Assembly (NCBI GenBank): GCA_902727925.1
Contig: CACVAW010000068.1
Location: forward strand, 1 to 57,891
Origin: an uncultured Campylobacterales bacterium
GTDB lineage: Bacteria; Campylobacterota; Campylobacteria; Campylobacterales; CACVAW01
Reading direction: 5' to 3'
DNA: 57,891 nt
Positions 44,003-55,578 of the stretch are shown one piece after another (position 1 is the stretch's first letter; the number at the start of each line of letters is the position of its first letter). The notes below the pieces were generated by a model. It worked only from the letters and a program-made list of their open reading frames with translations. It was not told where the DNA came from and did no database searches. Made by a program: the position numbers and the translations under genes.

Positions 44003-46318
44003 TTGAAACTAACAGTATTTACAACTTCTAGAGCTATTAGAGAATATATAAATACTAACGATATTCTGCAGAATGAAAAACTTATTACTTTAGGTGATTT
44101 TGAAAGTAGGGCTTTAATAGTTCCTAGCCTTAAGTTCATTGATACTAGACTTCGAGTATTTTACCTTAAGCGTGCTTGTGAATTTGATAGGTTTGAAGAC
44201 CTCAAAATAGATATTGATTTTTTTAGTTTTGTTAAGAATTATGAAATTATATTTAAGTTCTTTTCTGAACTTTTAAATGAAAATCTCACTATAAATGATA
44301 TAGAGCTTAGAGATACTTACGCAGAGTATGATTCACATCTAAATATATTAAAACAAGTTTTGCATAATTATGAAGAGCTACTTGCAAGTGATGGTTATAC
44401 AGATACAATATTCACTCCAAGTAATTATATTTTAAATGAAGTTTATTTAAAAGAGTTTGATAATATAGAAGTAAAACTCAACGGATATTTAAGTGGCTTT
44501 GAATACAAAATATTAAAAGAAATTGCTTGCCTAACAACTCTTAGAATAATATATACTCCAAATAAGTTTAACAAAAAAATGAGCTTAAAGTTTGAAGAGT
44601 ATTTTGGTGAAGAGCTGATATATAATATCACCTATAATCTTGACTTTAGTAATAAAAAAATAGAACAAACAAATAAACAAACCAAAAACTATATATATGA
44701 TGAATATCAAGCAAAAACTAGATTAGAGCAAGTTGCCTTTGTAAAGAAAAAAATATATGACTATATACAAAGTGAAATTGAGCCTGAAAAAATAGTAGTA
44801 ATAACTCCCGATGAGAAATTCACAAAAATACTCAGTGACTTTGATAATGAGAACAACCTAAACTTTGCCATGGGATTTTCTTATGAAAATGCTCCTGTAT
44901 ATCAAAAACTAAACACTATATATAAATATATGAATGAAAAGTCCAATGAAAATAGACATAGATTAGATAGATATGAAATTAGTGCAGAGTTTGTAGACGA
45001 ACTTAATCAGGTTAGTACTTTTGAAGAGTTTGAAGATAAGTTAGTGCAAATAGTAAATGAAGATGATAATATAGATATCTATAAAGAAGAACTTCACTAC
45101 CTAAAACTAGTTACACAAAAACAAGACCTTGATATCAAGAGTATATTCTTTTTGCTTTTAGCCACTTTAGCAAAAAAGACTATTTCTGATAGTAGAGGTG
45201 GTAAGATAACGGTGATGGGAGTACTTGAAAGCCGTGGGGTTTGTTATGATGGGATTATTGTAGTTGATTTTAATGATGATAAAGTTCCTAAGAAGAATAA
45301 AAAAGATTTGTTTTTGAGCTCTGAAGTGCGTGCTAAAGTGGGACTTCCTACTATGCAAGACAGACAAAACTTACAAAAGAGTTACTATGAAGCACTTTTT
45401 AGTGAGGCTAAGTATGTTTCGATTTCGTATGTAAAAGATGATGTGAGTGATAAATCAAGGTTTCTTGATGAGATAAAACCACACTTTAAAGTACTACCAA
45501 ACGACTATAAAACAATACTTTTTAATAAGACTAAATCAAAGAATCATTACTTATTAGAAGACCTTGAGCTTGAATATGAATTTGAGACTCTTAGTGCAAG
45601 TAGATTAAAAGTATTTTTAGAATGTAAAAGAAAATATTATTTTAGGTATATTAAAAAAATCAAACCAAATCCAGTCTATCAAGACAGAACTGCTCTTGAT
45701 ATTGGTATAAGTTTGCATGAGATATTAAAAAGAGTATATCAAAAACAGAGTTTTTTTGAGAGTATAGCTGAGCTAAAAAGTAGTTTTGATTATGAGCTTG
45801 ATACGTATTCAGTACAAAACAAACTTGACGATATATTCAAATTCAAATTAGATATAGTGCAATATAAAATAAATAGATTTTTTAAAGATGAGATTGTTCG
45901 TTTTGATATGGGACATAGTACCAAGTATGTTGAAAAAAGTTTTAAGTCTAGTTTTGAGGGGCTTAATATTGTCGGACAAATTGATAGGGTAGATTTATAT
46001 GAAGATAAGTTTGTAGTATATGACTATAAGACAGGAAGCATAAAGCTAGACAAAAAAATAAAAGATGATGTTAGTGATTTTCAATTGGTATTTTATTTTT
46101 TGTTATTAAAAGATATAAAACCAGTAGATAGTTTGTATTATGTTAATATCATAAAAGGTGAGTATCAAAAAGAAGAGTTACTAGAAGAAAAGCTAGAGGT
46201 CTTAAAAGAGATATTTAAAAAGTTAAAAGAACCTAAACAAAATTTCAGAATGTGTGAGAAGCTTTCAATTTGCAGGTTTTGTGAATATAGTACTATATGT
46301 GGACGTCAAAATGATTGA
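44003..46318 (+). CDS. addB: AddB-like nuclease/helicase subunit
   Basis: This 771-residue protein pairs with AddA for double-strand-break repair. The N-terminal part is an inactivated helicase-like region without a good Walker A. The C-terminal third is a RecB-family nuclease: LSASRLKVFLECKRKYYFRY (first Fe-S Cys), DIGISLHEI, GQIDRVDLYEDKFVVYDYKTG (Asp and Lys of the active site) and MCEKLSICRFCEYSTICG (remaining Fe-S Cys). TTG 44003 is the start. It overlaps addA by 8 bp. Confidence 0.9.
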   Translation: MKLTVFTTSRAIREYINTNDILQNEKLITLGDFESRALIVPSLKFIDTRLRVFYLKRACEFDRFEDLKIDIDFFSFVKNYEIIFKFFSELLNENLTINDIELRDTYAEYDSHLNILKQVLHNYEELLASDGYTDTIFTPSNYILNEVYLKEFDNIEVKLNGYLSGFEYKILKEIACLTTLRIIYTPNKFNKKMSLKFEEYFGEELIYNITYNLDFSNKKIEQTNKQTKNYIYDEYQAKTRLEQVAFVKKKIYDYIQSEIEPEKIVVITPDEKFTKILSDFDNENNLNFAMGFSYENAPVYQKLNTIYKYMNEKSNENRHRLDRYEISAEFVDELNQVSTFEEFEDKLVQIVNEDDNIDIYKEELHYLKLVTQKQDLDIKSIFFLLLATLAKKTISDSRGGKITVMGVLESRGVCYDGIIVVDFNDDKVPKKNKKDLFLSSEVRAKVGLPTMQDRQNLQKSYYEALFSEAKYVSISYVKDDVSDKSRFLDEIKPHFKVLPNDYKTILFNKTKSKNHYLLEDLELEYEFETLSASRLKVFLECKRKYYFRYIKKIKPNPVYQDRTALDIGISLHEILKRVYQKQSFFESIAELKSSFDYELDTYSVQNKLDDIFKFKLDIVQYKINRFFKDEIVRFDMGHSTKYVEKSFKSSFEGLNIVGQIDRVDLYEDKFVVYDYKTGSIKLDKKIKDDVSDFQLVFYFLLLKDIKPVDSLYYVNIIKGEYQKEELLEEKLEVLKEIFKKLKEPKQNFRMCEKLSICRFCEYSTICGRQND

Positions 46319-48998
46319 TAAGTTTTTGGCACTTGGTGCAAGTGCAGGTAGTGGCAAGACTTTTGCTCTTGCTATAAGATATATCGCACTTTTATATATG
46401 GGAGCAAATCCTTCAAGAGTTCTTACTCTTACCTTCACAAACAAAGCTGCAAACGAGATGAGAGAACGAATCTCAAATATACTAAGTGATTTGGAAAATA
46501 AAGAGCTTGAATTAAGTGTATTATCAAAGACACTTGGAGTAAGTACAAAAGAGTTACTTGCTAAAAAGAATGATATTTATAATAAGTTTTTAAAAAGTGA
46601 TATCAAGATATCTACAATAGATAGTTTTGTGAGTAGTATTTTAAGGAAATTTTCGTTTTATTTTGGAATTAATCCAGATTTTGAAGTAGATTTTTCTATA
46701 GACGAAGAAGAGCTTAAAAAGATATTTATAAAGAATATAAAGAAAAGTAATAAATACAAGTCTTTGATAAAGTTTTTGAGTGTTATTGAAGAAAATAGTA
46801 TGTTTGAGATTTTTGACAATCTGTATGCGTATGACTTCGTATATGATGAGGACGAAGTAGAGAATTCCAATACTGACTATAAAAAGAACTTCTATAGAAT
46901 AAAAGAACATTTTCTTAATTGTGAGGGATTAAGTAATAGTGCTAAAAAAGCTCTTAATGATAATGAGATATTAGAATTACTAAATAAAACATGGATGAGT
47001 AAAGACTCTTTAAAAGAGTATAGTTATTTTAAAAAGTGTCATAATGAACAAGTTGATGTTTATTTTGCAGAGCTTAAAAAAGATTTTTTAGAGTATTTAT
47101 TAGGTTATGAGAAGAATGTATTTAAAAAGATTTTTGAGTTTTATGAGATTTATTTACAAAGTAAATTAGAATATAGCAAAAGGTATAACAAGCTAAGCTT
47201 TGATGATATGAGTTATTTTGTGTCTAAATTGATGCTCGAGAATATAAATAAAGAGTTTTTTTATTTTAGGCTTGATGCGAGGATTGATCATATTCTTCTT
47301 GATGAATATCAAGATACTAGTTTTAAGCAGTTTGAAATATTAAAACCTCTTATCTCAGAAATAATATCTGGGTTTGGTGCAAGTGAATTTAAGACATTCT
47401 TTTATGTAGGAGATGTTAAGCAGTCGATTTACAGATTTAGAGGTGCAAACTCTCTCATTTTTGATTATACAAAAGATCTTTTTAGAGTGAATCTTAATAA
47501 TCTTGATACTAACTATAGAAGCTCTAAGGGTGTAGTAGAGTTTGTGAATAAAGTTTTTGAAACCAAAATAAAAGACTATATACCTCAAATAGCTGATCAA
47601 ACTAAGAGTGGCTATATTGAGTATATCTCAGATGAAGATATAAAAGAAAATGTATTAAAGAGTCTAAAGTCTCTTCTTGATAAAGGTGCGGCTCACTCTG
47701 ATATAGCAGTACTTGTAGAAAATAATAAAGAGGCAAAAGAGTTACAAGAATATATAACGGATAAAATTAAAAATATAAGTATCGCAACTGAACCTAATAT
47801 AGTTTTGAGTAAAAGCAAAAGCGTAAAACCAGTTGTTGAGTATCTAAAGTATATATATTTTAAAGAGATGATTCATAAAACAAACTTTAATGCTCTTATC
47901 GGAGAAGAATTTGATTATAAAAAAGAGTTTGAATATACTGAATCAATAACAGATAATATAAAAAAAATAATTCAGGTTTATGAATTAAGTGTTGATGATA
48001 ACTTACTTAAGTTCATAGAGTTTTCTTATTCATTTGATGACTTTGAAGAACTTTTATTTAATATAGAAAGTATCAGTCAAAAAGAGATTTTTGATTCAAG
48101 TAATAAAATTAAGATTTTGACTATTCATAAGTCTAAAGGTCTAGAGTTTGATCACGTCATAATAATGGATTCATTATCATCAAGAATTCCAAGTAATAGA
48201 AAAAAAATACTTTATAAATATGATGGGATTAGATTAGAAAAAATATTTTTCAAAATCAAAGGTAGAGGGAATGTTGATAGTGAATATAATAATGCAACCC
48301 AGCTAGAAAAGCAAAATGAATATATAGATAAGCTCAACAAGTACTATGTCGCTTTTACTAGAGCTAAAAACTCACTTATAATATGCGCAAAAAAAGAAAA
48401 ATCGAATTTTGACTTTTTGGAGATTGATGATTTTAGTTTGGGAAATATAGAAGTAAAACAAAAGCAAGAAACAAAAAAGCTTGAGTTTGAATATGAGTCA
48501 AAGTTCTATGGCTTACAAAATGTTAAAAAAGACAACAAAAGTGACAGAGAAGTAAAAAACCTAGATAAAATAAACTTCGGTACAAGCCTGCATTATATGC
48601 TTGAGATGATGGGTGACTTGAATCCCGAGAACTTGAAGAGTGCTTCTAATGCAATGAGTAATAGGTTTTGTAATATACTAAGTGATCTTGCATTAGAAGA
48701 TATAAGCAAAAGAGTTAAAAACTTAGTATTGAATAAAGAGTTTATTAATTTAATTAAAGATGCAAAGATATATAAAGAATATCCGATATATGATAATACG
48801 AGTGTTTCTTATATCGATTTACTTATCGAAAAAGATGATGAGGTAATAATATTAGATTATAAAACAGGTATATTTAGTGATAAATATACAAACCAATTGT
48901 CTAACTATAAGAATCTCTTTAAGAGTAAAACTTCTAAAAAGATAATAACAAAGCTATGTTTCATAAATAAAGATCAAATAAAGATAATAAATACTTAA
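46311..48998 (+). CDS. addA: AddA/RecB-like helicase-nuclease
   Basis: This 895-residue UvrD-type helicase starts IDKFLALGASAGSGKTFALA (Walker A). ATG 46311 overlaps the addB stop and gives the correct N-terminus; upstream starts lie in addB. Further motifs: LTLTFTNKAANEMRERI, DHILLDEYQDTSFKQFEIL, VGDVKQSIYRFRGA, ILTIHKSKGLEFDHVII and YVAFTRAKNSLIICA. A C-terminal nuclease has YIDLLIEKDDEVIILDYKTG. It is the motor and one nuclease of AddAB. Its start overlaps addB by 8 bp. Confidence 0.92.
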   Translation: MIDKFLALGASAGSGKTFALAIRYIALLYMGANPSRVLTLTFTNKAANEMRERISNILSDLENKELELSVLSKTLGVSTKELLAKKNDIYNKFLKSDIKISTIDSFVSSILRKFSFYFGINPDFEVDFSIDEEELKKIFIKNIKKSNKYKSLIKFLSVIEENSMFEIFDNLYAYDFVYDEDEVENSNTDYKKNFYRIKEHFLNCEGLSNSAKKALNDNEILELLNKTWMSKDSLKEYSYFKKCHNEQVDVYFAELKKDFLEYLLGYEKNVFKKIFEFYEIYLQSKLEYSKRYNKLSFDDMSYFVSKLMLENINKEFFYFRLDARIDHILLDEYQDTSFKQFEILKPLISEIISGFGASEFKTFFYVGDVKQSIYRFRGANSLIFDYTKDLFRVNLNNLDTNYRSSKGVVEFVNKVFETKIKDYIPQIADQTKSGYIEYISDEDIKENVLKSLKSLLDKGAAHSDIAVLVENNKEAKELQEYITDKIKNISIATEPNIVLSKSKSVKPVVEYLKYIYFKEMIHKTNFNALIGEEFDYKKEFEYTESITDNIKKIIQVYELSVDDNLLKFIEFSYSFDDFEELLFNIESISQKEIFDSSNKIKILTIHKSKGLEFDHVIIMDSLSSRIPSNRKKILYKYDGIRLEKIFFKIKGRGNVDSEYNNATQLEKQNEYIDKLNKYYVAFTRAKNSLIICAKKEKSNFDFLEIDDFSLGNIEVKQKQETKKLEFEYESKFYGLQNVKKDNKSDREVKNLDKINFGTSLHYMLEMMGDLNPENLKSASNAMSNRFCNILSDLALEDISKRVKNLVLNKEFINLIKDAKIYKEYPIYDNTSVSYIDLLIEKDDEVIILDYKTGIFSDKYTNQLSNYKNLFKSKTSKKIITKLCFINKDQIKIINT

Positions 48999-49095: not shown

Positions 49096-50856
49096 ATGCA
49101 ACTTCCAAATTTTTTTCAATCTTTCTTAGATAGAGTAAAACAAGCTAAAAAAAATTCTAGAAAGTTAGATAGTAAAGAAGACACAAAAATACAAGAAGAA
49201 GAACTTTCATCTTTTACACCAAAAGAGGATTTAAGTAATAAGGTTAAGACTACTACAGTTAATGATTTACAAGATAAAAGAAAAGCAGTTTTAAGAAATT
49301 ATGGTCTTGGGATAATCTTACTTGCTTTTTTAGTTGTTGGTATTATGGCCGCTATTTCACTTTTTGCTGGATTTTCAGAGAAAGCTACAGAGAGAGCAAA
49401 GATTGAGAAAAAAGAAAATGTGGATTTGTCGTTTTATGGTAATGAGGATACTTGGAAAATACAAGTTAATAATAGAATAATTGGTATTAATAATAAACTT
49501 GATAATAAATTTCATGAAATTAGAGAATCAACTAAACAAGATGCCAAAGACGCAAGAAAATTAATAGATACCTCAATATCACTCATGACTGATCAAATAG
49601 ATAAAGGTATCAAAAAACTTAATTGGCTAGTAGAAGATGTAAAAGATGATTTTAAAAAAATAACAGATGACACAAAAAAAGAACTTTTAGAAACTAGAGA
49701 TGATATAGCAGAAGCAAGAAAAAGTATAAACTCTACAGAAGAGAGATTAAAACAGTATACAAATACACAATTACAACAATCCTTAGTGGATTTAGAACAA
49801 AGACTATTGGGGCAGATTAGCTCTAATACAAACTTGTTAAATAAACCTAGAGTGACTATTAATGGTGGACTTACTAATATACCAGGTGGGGCAATTGCTG
49901 AAGGTGCTATTGGCTTAGCTGCGCCAACTTATCAAAATGGAGGCGGTCTTAGTCTATTTGAAAAAAGTATATTTGGTAAAGATTCAGAAAAAAAAGTAGA
50001 AGAGATGAAAGAGCAAGAAGTTGTTCTTGACTATGATAAAGAAGATGTTTATAGGTTTACAAATATAACAGATATTGATGTAGATGACAGTGTTGATTAT
50101 GACGCAGTTTATTCTCTTAAAGATGAAGAAAAAAAAGAACAAGAACCAGGTCTTCATATAATGACAGGTTTTTCAAAAGCATTACTTATTACAGGTGTTG
50201 CAGCTCCTACGTTTGGTCAAGGTCTTCAAAATCCAAAACCAGTTATTCTTACAGTTGAGAGTGACCTTATAATAGCAAACGATGACACTGAAGATTTGAA
50301 AAATTGTATGTTACTAGGAACAGCAACTGGTAATATGAACAGCTCACGTGCAGAAATTCAAATTACTCGTCTTAGTTGTTCTATCACTCAAAGAGATGGT
50401 AAAAAATATAAGATTGAGCAATCAGGAAGTCCTCTTGGTTGGGTTATTGGTGAAGATGGTAAATATGGCTTAAAAGGAAGATTGGTTGATAGCTCTAGTA
50501 AAGTAATTATGCGAGAACTAATGGTAGGATTCTTGCAAGGGGTATCTGAAGCCTTTGCTAATCAAGGTGATAAAAATGATGGAACTACTGATATTAGTTT
50601 AGGTGCAAGTAGTGGAGCAGGAACTGGAGCAGGACAGGCCTTTGATAACTTAGCTGAATATTACAAAAAAATGCTTGATGGACTTTATCCTGTTATTGAT
50701 GTAAAAGCTGGAAGAAAAGTTACAATACTATTCAAAGGAAGTACTCCTACTCAAGAGACTAGATACAGAAGTGTAGAAGTTCAAGAAAGAAGAGATTCAG
50801 GAGCTTATAACTCAAATAACGCAGAGGAGATAGAAATTGGTTATCAAAATTGGTAA
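49096..50856 (+). CDS. traB: TraB-like F-type T4SS core protein (VirB10 family)
   Basis: This 586-residue protein has a short cytoplasmic start, one membrane helix near residue 75 (YGLGIILLAFLVVGIMAAIS), a long coiled coil (about 130-240), and a C-terminal TraB/VirB10 beta-barrel: MTGFSKALLITGVAAPTFGQ, LTVESDLIIANDDTEDLKNC, SSRAEIQITRLSCSITQRDG and VKAGRKVTILFKG. In F-type systems TraB spans the envelope and joins TraV and TraK at the outer membrane. No TraL, TraE or TraK lies in front, where addA is found. AGAGGA precedes the ATG. Confidence 0.85.
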   Translation: MQLPNFFQSFLDRVKQAKKNSRKLDSKEDTKIQEEELSSFTPKEDLSNKVKTTTVNDLQDKRKAVLRNYGLGIILLAFLVVGIMAAISLFAGFSEKATERAKIEKKENVDLSFYGNEDTWKIQVNNRIIGINNKLDNKFHEIRESTKQDAKDARKLIDTSISLMTDQIDKGIKKLNWLVEDVKDDFKKITDDTKKELLETRDDIAEARKSINSTEERLKQYTNTQLQQSLVDLEQRLLGQISSNTNLLNKPRVTINGGLTNIPGGAIAEGAIGLAAPTYQNGGGLSLFEKSIFGKDSEKKVEEMKEQEVVLDYDKEDVYRFTNITDIDVDDSVDYDAVYSLKDEEKKEQEPGLHIMTGFSKALLITGVAAPTFGQGLQNPKPVILTVESDLIIANDDTEDLKNCMLLGTATGNMNSSRAEIQITRLSCSITQRDGKKYKIEQSGSPLGWVIGEDGKYGLKGRLVDSSSKVIMRELMVGFLQGVSEAFANQGDKNDGTTDISLGASSGAGTGAGQAFDNLAEYYKKMLDGLYPVIDVKAGRKVTILFKGSTPTQETRYRSVEVQERRDSGAYNSNNAEEIEIGYQNW

Positions 50857-51040
50857 AATAGTAGCACTATTGTATATATTGATATTTGCTTGTGGATGTA
50901 GTGCTCTTAGTCTTGGGTATGAGAAGAGTTATTGTGAAGAAAATGGTTATGACTATACTGATGCTGGTATCTGTGGTAATCCAATGACAATATATCAAAA
51001 CAGAAAATATATAAATAGCTTAAAAAGCGATTGTCAATAA
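50837..51040 (+). CDS. Small lipoprotein resembling the TraV N-terminal region
   Basis: This 67-residue protein starts at TTG 50837 inside the end of traB (20-bp overlap). It has a lipoprotein signal with candidate lipobox in LIFACGCSAL, then YCEENGYDYTDAGICGNPMT and YQNRKY, with two Cys 14 apart. TraV proteins start with a similar lipidated Cys followed by a Cys pair and a Y-x-N patch. The next gene has the rest of TraV with its own lipobox, so the TraV functions may be split in two. Confidence 0.6.
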   Translation: MVIKIGKIVALLYILIFACGCSALSLGYEKSYCEENGYDYTDAGICGNPMTIYQNRKYINSLKSDCQ

Positions 51041-51058: not shown

Positions 51059-51628
51059 ATGTTAAATAAAATATGCTTAGGAATCTTATTAATCGTACTA
51101 CTAAATGGATGTGGTCTTAGAACAGGTGTTAAGTCTTGTGGCATACTTTCAGATATAGATAGTGTAGAGCAACAAAGAAATTTTTTAGTTGAGAGTGGTA
51201 GAAGTAGCTTAACCCCTTATCAAATGAAAATTAAGCCAATAGTAGGTTCACGTCAAGATGATTCAAAAGTAGTTGTCGATATGGGGAAAGTGCTTAAGAT
51301 TTGGGTAGCACCGTACAAAAGTGGAGCAACTATGATATCTAGCCATGACTTGTATACTTGGGTACAAAAACCTGGATTTATACCAGGAGAAAGTATAGAT
51401 ACTGTAAAAAAAGCTGATGGTATGATGGCTGCATCAAAAAGATTGCCTTTTGTTTTTAATGAGAATGAAGTTGCAAAAGAGGGTGATCTTAATAGTAAAG
51501 AAGTAAAAGATTATGTCAATAGTGTATATAAAGTACAAAATGATAATGAAATAATAAAAGAAAATAATAAAAAAGCATCTAAATATGATCCTAGTATAAA
51601 ACAATATTTAGAAAAACAAAGGAAATAA
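51059..51628 (+). CDS. traV: TraV-like T4SS lipoprotein
   Basis: This 189-residue lipoprotein has lipobox LLNGC (Cys18). The central KIWVAPYKSGATMISSHDLY followed by TWVQKPGFIPG resembles the conserved TraV segment (IWIAP..D..Y..V..PG.W). TraV is the outer-membrane lipoprotein that ties TraB to TraK in F-type T4SS. The charged C-terminal tail is longer than usual. It lies 18 bp after the small lipoprotein and 3 bp before the next gene. Confidence 0.7.
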   Translation: MLNKICLGILLIVLLNGCGLRTGVKSCGILSDIDSVEQQRNFLVESGRSSLTPYQMKIKPIVGSRQDDSKVVVDMGKVLKIWVAPYKSGATMISSHDLYTWVQKPGFIPGESIDTVKKADGMMAASKRLPFVFNENEVAKEGDLNSKEVKDYVNSVYKVQNDNEIIKENNKKASKYDPSIKQYLEKQRK

Positions 51629-51631
51629 ATT

Positions 51632-52099
51632 ATGATAAAAAAATCTCTTTTAATAGTTGCATTCTCATCTATGATGTTAGCTGGTCCTGCAAATGATATC
51701 ACAATATCAGACTTAAAAGAAGCAGTTGTACTTTTAATAGAAGATGTTAAAAAGTTAAGAACTGAAAATATAGCGGTTTCAGATGAAGCAATGCAACAAA
51801 TAACTAGCTATAAAGAAACATTTAAAAATAGATTAGAAGGTGGGATTGAAGGTCTTACTACAAAAATTACTTCAGTGGATCAAGAGTTAGAAGTGTTAAA
51901 AAAAGAGAATGAAGATCTTAGATTAAAAAACCTAGAATTAGTTGATACTATCAATCAAATTAATTCAGATACTAAGAGCGTTTTGATAACTAGTCATAAC
52001 ATAGAAAAAAAATATATAAAAATAGAAAACTCAATAGAAGAAACTGATACAGCATTAGATAGAAAGATTAAAAGATTTGTAAGAAAATATACTAAATAG
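51632..52099 (+). CDS. Exported coiled-coil protein of the T4SS-like cluster
   Basis: This 155-residue protein has a signal peptide (KKSLLIVAFSSMMLAGPA), then a helical, charged chain; about residues 75-115 (LEVLKKENEDLRLKN) are a clear coiled coil. It ends with a basic stretch (RKIKRFVRKYTK). Function unknown; the fold could resemble a periplasmic spacer. It lies between traV and the ATPase gene with 3- and 8-bp gaps, so it belongs to the unit. Confidence 0.65.
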   Translation: MIKKSLLIVAFSSMMLAGPANDITISDLKEAVVLLIEDVKKLRTENIAVSDEAMQQITSYKETFKNRLEGGIEGLTTKITSVDQELEVLKKENEDLRLKNLELVDTINQINSDTKSVLITSHNIEKKYIKIENSIEETDTALDRKIKRFVRKYTK

Positions 52100-52107
52100 G
52101 TTTTTAA

Positions 52108-55100
52108 ATGGGTCGTGTAATTGATATTAGTAAAAGAATTCTAGATATATTCCTTTCTCCTCTTGAGGATATTGGTACAACAGAGGGTTTATCTGAAAAA
52201 AATCTCCGCTCAGTACTCGAAAATAGGGGTGTAAGTGATTTTTTACTTTATAGGTATTATGAAGATTTAGGAGACGTTGGTCTTTATACTCTTTCAAATG
52301 GAAGAAAGGGTTTTATTTTTCGTATGTTTCCTCCTGCTTTTTTGGGACGTGCTACTGAGGAACAGTTTGAGTCTTTTTTTTCATCAATGTCAATAGATGG
52401 TGCAGTAGTCCAATTCTTAACATTTTCAAGTCAAAACATTGAAAACCAAATAGATGAATTTGAAGCAATACATAACGAACCCTCAAATATTAGAAGAGAT
52501 TATGCCTTAAAAGAAGTAATTAAAAATAGAGCTACAAACCTCAAAAAATGGACTAAAGAGTCAATGTTTAGAGGAGCTGACTTTAGGCTTAGAGATCTTG
52601 TAAATCTAGTATCTGTACTTTTCCCTGAAGATATGGAAGAAGAGGATATCATTGCTCAATTTGATATTATAAAAGCAAATATGGGGAAACTATATTTACA
52701 AAACTTCTCAGCTAACAGCTTAGTAATACTTTTAAGAGAGTTTTTTCATGCTGAAAAGACAGCTAGTGAATGGTCAAGTAGATTTGATCAAAGAAAAATG
52801 ATTAACCATCAAATTGTTAGTGGTGGAGTTAAAGTTCAAACCTCGCATAAAGAACACAAAAAAGGGTTTGTAATAAATGATACAAACTATGTTACAACTT
52901 TAACCACAAAAGAATTTCCTGTAAAAATGTCACTTGAAACATTTAATGAAATGTTCTTTGATAGACTAGGTAAAGATATACAACCTCCAATTTATGGTCC
53001 TTTTATAGCATCTCTTACTATAGTATTTGATGGAGTTGAAAAAGCTCAAGAAGAAGCATTAGCTAAACTTAGACATGATATGAAAGAGCTTAAAAAATTA
53101 CCTTCAAAGGTAACTGATAGTGACCCAGTGCTTAAAGAAAGATTACAAGAAGTATTTACTCAAATAAATGAAATTACAATTAATGGTGAAGTTCCATTAA
53201 GGTCAATGTGGACACTTAGTATATTTGATACAGACAGAAGAAAGCTTGGTCAAAGTGTATCAAACATTAAAAATAACTTTAGATTATATAACTGGAAATT
53301 AGTTGAAGAAAAATTTGGAAATATTGCTTTATTCTCAACTCTATTTTCTTTTCCATTACAGTATCATAAACAAGTTGATGAGCATTTAAAAAGATTTAAT
53401 ACGTTATTTAAAAGTAATGATTCAGCTATTGTTCCAGCAATTACAGATAATAAAGGGATGGGAGCAAAACACTTACCATATTTTGGTAGAACTGGTCAGA
53501 TACAGTGGTTTGATCCTTATAGCTCAGGTTCAAACTATAATATAGCTGCTATGGGTTATTCTGGATCTGGTAAATCATATACCTTTGCAGATTTTATCAC
53601 CTTATCTCTTGCTATGGGGTACAAAATAAGAGTTATTGATTCACTTCCAAGTTATCAAAGATTATCAAATCTTATTGGTGGACAATATATTGACTTTAGT
53701 GATGAAAAACCAATTTGTGTAAACTTTTTTAGTAAAATACTTGTTAAAAGAGATCCTAAAACAGGTGATGTGATATATGATGAAACTGAATATGGACAAA
53801 GATACCCAGTAATTGCAGAAGAAGATATTTCAGCCATTATCCCAATTGTGGGTATGATGTGTGGGGTTAATATTGTTGCTTCTGGAAGTGAAAGTGCAAC
53901 AGATATTAATACAGGCACAAAAACAAGATATCTAGCAGCTAGGTTTGAAGAAGCGATTAGAGAAAGTTTTAGAAGTCGTGGATATGACGCAGGTATGAAA
54001 GAAATTCAAGATTATTTAATAGAAATCTTTGATCAAGAAAGACATATTGGAAACAAAGAACAAGCTTCAATACTACAAGATATTATTGTTGCACTTGCAC
54101 CTTTTTCTGATCCTAAAGGTGCTTACTTTAGTTTCTTTAATGGTGTTAATAATGTTGAGTTTTCACTTGACTTTGCTGTAGTGGAAATTACAAGACTTGA
54201 AGAAAAAGGTGCTCTTTATCCTATTGTACTAATGGTTGTTGCAAATCAAATTGTAAATGAGTTTTTTGGAGATGAAGATAGATCAAAAGCTCTTATACTT
54301 GATGAATTCTGGAAGTTTATTGACAATATAATAGTTATGACTTTTATTGAAGAATTAGCTAGAAAGATTCGTAAGAAGAATGGAATACTTGTAACTATTA
54401 CTCAGTCGATTGCAGATTATTTTAGAAATGAAAGAGCGATATCTCTTTATGAAAACTGTAACTGGAAATGGATGCTTAAGCAACCAGCAAGTTCAATTGA
54501 AAGAGCAGCTCAAAGTTCAAGATTATCAATCAATCCTTTTTATCAGAAGATGTTAAAGACTATTGGTAAAAGAAGTGGAATGTACGGTGAATTTGCAATT
54601 CTTTCTGAAGATACAGCGATGTTTACAAGACTTAAAGCTGATTCACTTAGTCACTGGGTATATACAACGGATCCAAAAGATAAGAAAAAAATAAATTATA
54701 TAATGAAAGAACACAACTTAAATGATGTTGATGCATCAAAGTTTTGTGCATATCAAAGCGAAAATGAAGATGCAACAACTCAAGAAATTCTTGAAGCAAC
54801 AGGAATTGTTGCAAAAAAAGATGCGGTTGCAAGAAAAAAAGCAAAAGAAGAAAGAGATAGAACGATACTTTATAATTTAAATAAAATTATAAAATCAAAA
54901 AACCCACTTCTTTATTTTCAGTCTGTATATGATAGGAATGAGCAAAGAATTATGGAAGAGATACTTATTCGTATGGAAATAGATGATGGTACTTTGGTCT
55001 ATCCAAAAGACATATTAGCAATTGCTAAACATAATAATTTACTTCAAGATTTAGAAAGAGCAATAATTAGAAAAGCTGTCAAAATGTACTCTACTAGACA

Positions 55101-55578
55101 AGATCAGATATTATGTGCCATAAATATAACATTAGAATCATTTTTAGATGAACTTATGATTGATTATCTTATTGAAACTATTGTTGAAGCTGGTTGTACC
55201 AATAAAGTTGTTCTTGAAGTACCTCTTGTAAAAGTATATAAAGAAATGTCATATGATATCGCAGAAAAACATTTAAAGATCCTTAGGAATAAAGGAATAA
55301 GGGTTGTAACTGATGGAGTTACACTTGATACTAGTCCAAAAAAATTCTTAGGATTTGATGTAGATTATATAAAGATAGATGGTAGTACAGTTTCACAAAT
55401 GATAGAAGATGATACAAGTAAGATATTTACAGAAGCAATTATTATTATGGCTCAAAAGAACAAAATGAAAGTAAGTATGTTACATATTGAAAATGAACAA
55501 ATATATAACATTGCTAAAGAGATTGGAGCTGATTACTTTCAAGGACACTTTTTAAGTATGCCTGAAAAAATATTATAA
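52108..55578 (+). CDS. TraC-like T4SS ATPase fused to a degenerate EAL domain
   Basis: This 1156-residue protein starts with an F-type TraC/VirB4 module: TraC N-terminal region (about 20-440), Walker A GYSGSGKS (483-490), Walker [10 protein letters not shown] with Asp732-Glu733. At about 895 a charged linker starts, and 910-1156 is an EAL-type domain: EIL in place of EAL (951-953), Asn1006, Glu1037, Lys1089 (YIKID) and the C-terminal FQGHFLSMP. The DD pair is Asp1069-Gly1070 and the EGVE Glu is replaced (MLHIE), so phosphodiesterase activity is unlikely, though c-di-GMP binding is possible. TraC normally ends near 870 residues. It lies 25 bp before secA. Confidence 0.85.

Follow-up and report, generated by a model that had tools for sequence, protein, structure and literature searches.

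What would an EAL domain, a kind of domain that as an enzyme breaks down the signal molecule c-di-GMP, do at the end of TraC, the ATPase that powers the F-type conjugation and secretion machine? The question is raised by one gene in the contig analysed here (57,891 nucleotides from an uncultured Campylobacterales bacterium, GenBank assembly GCA_902727925.1, contig CACVAW010000068.1; this whole stretch is called the window below). The original prediction, made from the letters alone, had read in this gene a TraC-type ATPase running without a break into a degenerate EAL domain, and this continuity was borne out, the gene being one uninterrupted frame with no internal stops:

52108..55578, + strand: traC-EAL fusion gene, 1156 aa (frame, translation, Pfam, NCBIfam)
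52234..53358, + strand: TraC_F_IV domain, aa 43-417 (Pfam PF11130, E 7.7e-28)
53554..53577, + strand: Walker A GYSGSGKS, aa 483-490 (translation; G483, G486, G488, K489 and S490 invariant in the fusions)
54301..54306, + strand: Walker B DE, aa 732-733 (invariant in the fusion alignments)

The ATPase assignment also stood, with matches to TraC_F_IV (98 bits, curated cut-off 28.1), to P-loop_TraG (aa 649-869, E 3.2e-23) and to the TraC family TIGR02746 (aa 58-868, E 9.6e-128), and both Walker motifs lie exactly where they had been placed. Since the TIGR02746 score (427.3 bits) falls under the equivalog cut-off of 567.05, the window TraC is a divergent relative and not a strict equivalog. The marks of an F-type TraC are nevertheless there, namely intact Walker A and Walker B motifs and traB and traV nearby (the traV call being weak), and at its other end the protein matches the Pfam EAL family with 132.6 bits (cut-off 31.3). 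The gene product is a TraC (VirB4-class) ATPase of an F-type type IV secretion system (T4SS) with a C-terminal EAL-fold domain.

The fold of that domain was the point on which a structural comparison could have overturned the prediction, and it came out as EAL. An AlphaFold2 model of aa 868-1156 was obtained with a mean pLDDT of 89.6 and a pTM of 0.80, and the best 50 Foldseek matches in the PDB were all EAL-domain structures (E down to 8e-17), among them both an enzyme (MucR 5m1t_B, TMt 0.89) and receptors (LapD 3pjt, TMt 0.86; FimX 4f3h, TMt 0.86). What had to be corrected was the boundary: an EAL-like domain had been drawn at about 910-1156, and the domain is present, with its proper start near residue 926 and a predicted linker helix before it:

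54805..54897, + strand: predicted linker helix between TraC and EAL, aa 900-930 (AlphaFold2 model, helix 33-63 of the modelled stretch)
54883..55563, + strand: degenerate EAL domain, aa 926-1152 (PF00563, E 1.9e-38; fold confirmed)

When the fusion was searched in other Campylobacterota, where its absence would have spoken for a local accident, nine more full-length cases were found, all in families of the Campylobacterales other than that of the window, giving ten genomes in total. The carriers are a plasmid (pAMYT of Malaciobacter mytili LMG 24559, whose copy, WP_114843316, is annotated merely as 'EAL domain-containing protein') and chromosomal or unplaced contigs; they include Sulfurimonas indica NW8N (G075), the single large contig of genome G171, and six genomes from four genera of one family, f13, which may be the Helicobacteraceae. 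In an additional genome, G185, a TraC fragment at a contig edge scores as the fused kind, and its EAL part would fall off the contig. The possibility of a local gene-fusion or assembly artefact was rejected: nine other genomes have the same fusion after the same TraC end, among them one in a single contig and one with the fusion on a complete plasmid, no supporting evidence for an artefact was found, and its probability is negligible.

The fusion is rare and patchy, the pattern expected of a mobile element, with 5 of 399 genomes in the order sample (the G185 fragment counted), 6 of 121 in family f13 and 10 of 397 in the class sample, and at least 11 TraCs of the same order have no EAL domain. 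A search of viral contigs did not find the fusion, and a phage collection gave matches to the TraC part alone. A profile scan of genome contigs with narrow patterns returned Sulfurimonas indica as its sole fusion. One candidate (G112, contig C112), which matched aa 857-1154, was dropped, its 989-aa frame starting like a periplasmic sensor protein and not like TraC.

The genes around the fusion are those of an F-type system, and they recur beside other fused copies:

46254-48998: RecB/AddA-like helicase gene, flanking the tra block on the left (NCBIfam profile search)
49096..50856, + strand: traB/TrbI-type gene of the F-type T4SS (PF03743 TrbI, E 6.8e-23; NF010289 TraB, E 4.1e-23)
50837..51040, + strand: small lipoprotein-like ORF overlapping traB (same-place homologues in M. 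mytili and two f13 clusters, E 1.5e-12 to 4.5e-9)
51059..51628, + strand: TraV-like lipoprotein with a KPIxGSR motif (phmmer E 1.7e-27 to 6.7e-24 against f13 and M. mytili lipoproteins)
51632..52099, + strand: exported coiled-coil protein directly 5' of the fused traC (weak phmmer matches)
55604 to contig end: secA, flanking the tra block on the right (translation read by eye)

M. mytili, G171 and four f13 loci have a traB homologue ahead of the fused TraC, and traB and the TraV-like gene adjoin it in M. mytili and the f13 clusters too; a homologue of the TraV-like lipoprotein matches TraV TIGR02747 weakly, under the cut-off (E 8.6e-6). In M. mytili and f13, too, the gene just before the fused TraC encodes a coiled-coil protein, and the weak phmmer matches of the one in the window (E 2.9e-5 to 3.6e-4) are to the same-place gene of M. 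mytili and two f13 clusters. The f13 T4SS clusters (L134-L141) are F-type and encode an AAA protein of the MoxR type; four of them were read, and three of these encode a very large exported-looking protein (about 1440-1730 aa) downstream of TraC-EAL. A DDE_3 transposase gene (886-1923; PF13358, E 1.4e-33) lies close to the left end of the window.

In the window genome (1.5 Mb, 69 contigs) the T4SS appears to be split over several places, since further blocks sit on other contigs: a second T4SS block has a traH-like gene on C18 with a near-copy on C31, and coupling-protein-like genes are found on C55 and on C27, the latter beside a relaxase. The traH-like blocks of C18 and C31 (L051 and L050) are near-identical and lie beside the same gene; they may reflect true duplication, strain variation or an assembly effect.

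How often the fusion arose was addressed with trees. When the TraC parts were compared without the EAL part, the ten fused proteins fell on one side of a branch with 100/100 support against eleven unfused ones, and the same branch kept 100/99 once outside TraCs were added. The tree of the EAL part alone placed nine of the ten together (98/89), with weak support for all ten (65/53) and the window sequence on a long branch. Within the fusion clade three groups can be recognised, an environmental one (M. mytili, S. indica and G171), the f13 proteins and the window protein. Because the ten fused TraCs form one clade, the data point to a single old fusion, early in a Campylobacterales lineage of this T4SS; that it has been retained since is shown by this clade, by the conserved operon and by the same catalytic losses in its members.

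These losses concern the residues that make an EAL domain an enzyme:

55315..55317, + strand: G1070, replacing the second Asp of DDF, a metal-2 ligand (absent in 10/10 fusions; ligand roles from PMC5301497)
55480..55482, + strand: L1125, replacing the Glu of AExVE, a metal-2 ligand (absent in 10/10 fusions; ligand roles from PMC5301497)

Both losses had been predicted, and so had the landmarks that remain, E951, N1006, E1037, K1089 and Q1145-G1146, all of which the alignment confirmed; in full, the window domain retains Q938, E951, R955, P966, N1006, E1037, D1069, K1089, D1091 and Q1145. Across the ten fusions the EAL Glu, the Asn, the Glu/Asp, the Lys and the QG are always kept and the first Asp is kept in nine. 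In the comparison set, made up of unfused EAL domains from the same order, the catalytic residues are kept, with the degenerate GGDEF-EAL protein of the window genome as the single exception. The ligands are known from PA3825 (PMC5301497). Its metal 1 is coordinated by the EAL Glu, the Asn, Asp130 and the leading Asp of DD. Metal 2 has the second Asp and Asp183 as ligands, except in the calcium form, where the first Asp and Glu217 take this role. Mapped by position, Asp183 would be the KIDG Asp and Glu217 the AExVE Glu. By these ligand roles the fusions have retained metal site 1 and lost metal site 2.

A phosphodiesterase, still active or with residual activity, that keeps c-di-GMP low around the secretion machine would fit the intact EAL fold and the preserved metal-1 site, and is nonetheless very improbable. 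The window domain lacks the full DD motif and the AExVE Glu by which a two-metal EAL phosphodiesterase is recognised, the DDFGTG loop is replaced in the fusions, and FimX, which lacks this same DDFGTG motif, required for metal coordination, is described as an inactive phosphodiesterase (PMC5301497). With the same two catalytic residues gone from all ten proteins, the fused domain is very probably no phosphodiesterase.

If the domain does not cleave c-di-GMP, it matters whether its hosts make the molecule at all. In three f13 hosts with complete genomes (G523, G421 and G478, 99-100% complete) the fused domain is the sole EAL domain, and the motif of their one GGDEF-like protein is broken (GDSEF, GGGRF or GSGRF); a degenerate-GGDEF protein of about 360-390 aa is conserved in all six f13 hosts (L103, L104, L105, L110, L111 and L112). 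Since cyclases with degenerate motifs can be active (PMC3974145 counts about a quarter of the known cyclases as having such motifs and names an active AGDEF enzyme), we infer rather than observe that c-di-GMP is absent from these three; in G421 and G478 it is probably not made, and the EAL domain is nonetheless kept. Between these two genomes the EAL part is under purifying selection, with 7 synonymous and 3 non-synonymous differences where about 80% non-synonymous are expected under neutrality (P=0.0008), a test that covers ten nucleotide differences in one pair, dN/dS being saturated or unreliable for the other pairs tried.

In the window genome a single short GGDEF protein has its GGDEF motif intact. 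Because its sole other EAL protein, a GGDEF-EAL protein on contig C2 (L055:3511-6069), is degenerate in both motifs, there may be hardly any functional c-di-GMP turnover in this small genome. The environmental hosts present the opposite situation, with many GGDEF matches (G171, G164 and G075; 35 to 48 per host, with 48 in the 3.2 Mb of G171 and 41 in S. indica). The tra cluster of M. mytili holds a GGDEF-EAL gene (WP_114843305) with an intact EAL, and that of S. indica a gene with an intact EAL. In G171 a DNA topoisomerase-GGDEF fusion with an intact GGEEF (L040:6856-9834) lies in the tra cluster downstream of the fused TraC.

On this evidence three readings of the dead domain can be weighed. 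It could, as the original prediction proposed, be a receptor whose binding of c-di-GMP directly switches the TraC motor, so that conjugation or secretion would follow the sessile or motile state of the host, and there is a good deal that fits: the metal-1 residues, the Lys and the QG are kept, the YQP-type Gln is present in nine of the ten fusions, and c-di-GMP controls other secretion and pilus ATPases (PMC8389850, PMC4624772). The Arg of EALxR, which would be the counterpart of Arg192 of BlrP1, a phosphate contact (PMC3989770), is present in the window, M. mytili, G171, G415 and G497, is a Lys in G491, and is missing from G523, G421, G478 and S. indica. Its loss in three hosts that have no intact cyclase is what would be expected if binding decays once the signal has gone, but the three losses amount to one event in one clade, and S. 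indica has lost both this Arg and the Gln despite its 41 GGDEF matches. Similarly, c-di-GMP genes lie within all three environmental tra clusters, which favours a c-di-GMP role there; this is suggestive only, since GGDEF genes are common in the environmental genomes, and with 48 of them in G171 one in a 40 kb stretch is unsurprising. Against a receptor also stand the window genome, with its one short intact-motif GGDEF protein, and G523, G421 and G478, which seem unable to make c-di-GMP and yet retain the domain, so that we regard this reading as rather unlikely. A wider version, in which the dead domain senses c-di-GMP, or another ligand in the metal-1 pocket where c-di-GMP has been lost, and switches the ATPase directly, is somewhat doubtful. 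At the other extreme, the EAL fold could be a pure structural appendage that stabilises TraC oligomers or the contact with the coupling protein without any ligand. The apparent loss of catalysis agrees with this, as does the lower identity of the EAL part between members of the three groups (about 17-25%, vs about 26-34% for TraC), but the few invariant residues of the EAL part are mostly those of the pocket (N1006, K1089, E1128 and Q1145-G1146), and a ligand-free appendage is improbable.

The best reading lies between these, namely that the fused domain serves TraC as a regulatory or docking module, with an EAL fold that is catalytically dead, and responds to c-di-GMP only in some hosts. Its core function seems c-di-GMP-independent because the domain persists under selection in hosts without a recognisable diguanylate cyclase; for a dead module whose core role does not need c-di-GMP we see about even chances. 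Carried on a long helix at the end of the TraC motor, such a built-in regulatory or docking module could bind a partner or ligand through its pocket or dimer face, and this binding could tune how TraC assembles or works at the cytoplasmic entrance; where the host produces c-di-GMP, the molecule may still be a ligand of the retained pocket. Besides the c-di-GMP genes of the environmental tra clusters, a further point tells against the c-di-GMP-independent module: some ligand binding by the fused domain is likely, since the metal-1 residues and the Lys are kept even in the hosts without a cyclase. The fusion clade offers a natural comparison here, the same fused domain being found both where c-di-GMP genes abound and where no cyclase can be recognised, with which it can be asked whether dead EAL domains are receptors or c-di-GMP-free modules, and also whether conjugation is controlled at the motor, beyond transcription.

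TraC-EAL is a new domain architecture made from known parts. The original prediction knew of no described system with this fusion, and a search for TraC or VirB4 with EAL or c-di-GMP agreed, finding none described in open-access titles and abstracts. With the F-plasmid type TraC (TIGR02746) the window protein shares the TraC_F_IV domain, the TraG-type P-loop, the Walker motifs and the place in a traB-traV-traC operon; the F-plasmid type has no C-terminal EAL domain, and the window protein belongs to a separate TraC clade (427 bits against the 567 cut-off). The closest TraC outside the fusion clade, from a Persephonella marina plasmid (NC_012439; P0008, L142:5839-8616), has no EAL domain. Its tail (aa ~850-926) holds two PIGEILEKLGYIT.../LFGEIATELGFVS... 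repeats that look like the MshEN/GSPII domains found in pilus ATPases, and has PilF 6f8l as its best PDB match (E 0.0015). A Pfam scan of this tail and of the whole protein gave no MshEN domain, and the Arg of the RLG motif is missing; a second type of c-di-GMP-related domain at the same TraC end would, if true, be striking.

Like TraC-EAL, the ATPases of the MshE/PilB type are secretion or pilus ATPases with an added c-di-GMP-related domain; they belong to another ATPase class, and the domain, which binds c-di-GMP, is a different one (MshEN) at the N-terminus. LapD shares the EAL fold, with catalysis not expected, and in structure 3pjt it has c-di-GMP bound, which for the window domain is putative; unlike TraC-EAL, LapD is a membrane signalling protein. 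YdiV has kept the EAL fold and lost catalysis; c-di-GMP is neither a ligand nor a substrate for it, and it works through contact with protein (PMC3510510), a mode of action that would also suit the window domain. It has, however, lost 8 of the 10 conserved residues (PMC3510510), whereas the window domain keeps most of its c-di-GMP pocket residues and has lost the two metal-2 ligands. FimX, among the best sequence and structural matches of the window domain, likewise ties a dead EAL domain to a pilus ATPase: its EAL domain binds PilZ, which bridges it to the ATPase PilB, and with full-length FimX present, ATPase activity of the PilB-PilZ complex goes up about threefold (PMC8389850). FimX does this as a protein of its own acting through PilZ, whereas the window EAL is fused to a T4SS ATPase, and among the ten fusion hosts searched PilZ was detected in G171 alone, with none in G523, G421, G478 or the window genome. 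By analogy FimX would be the nearest working model for the fused domain, and YdiV the nearest model that does without c-di-GMP.
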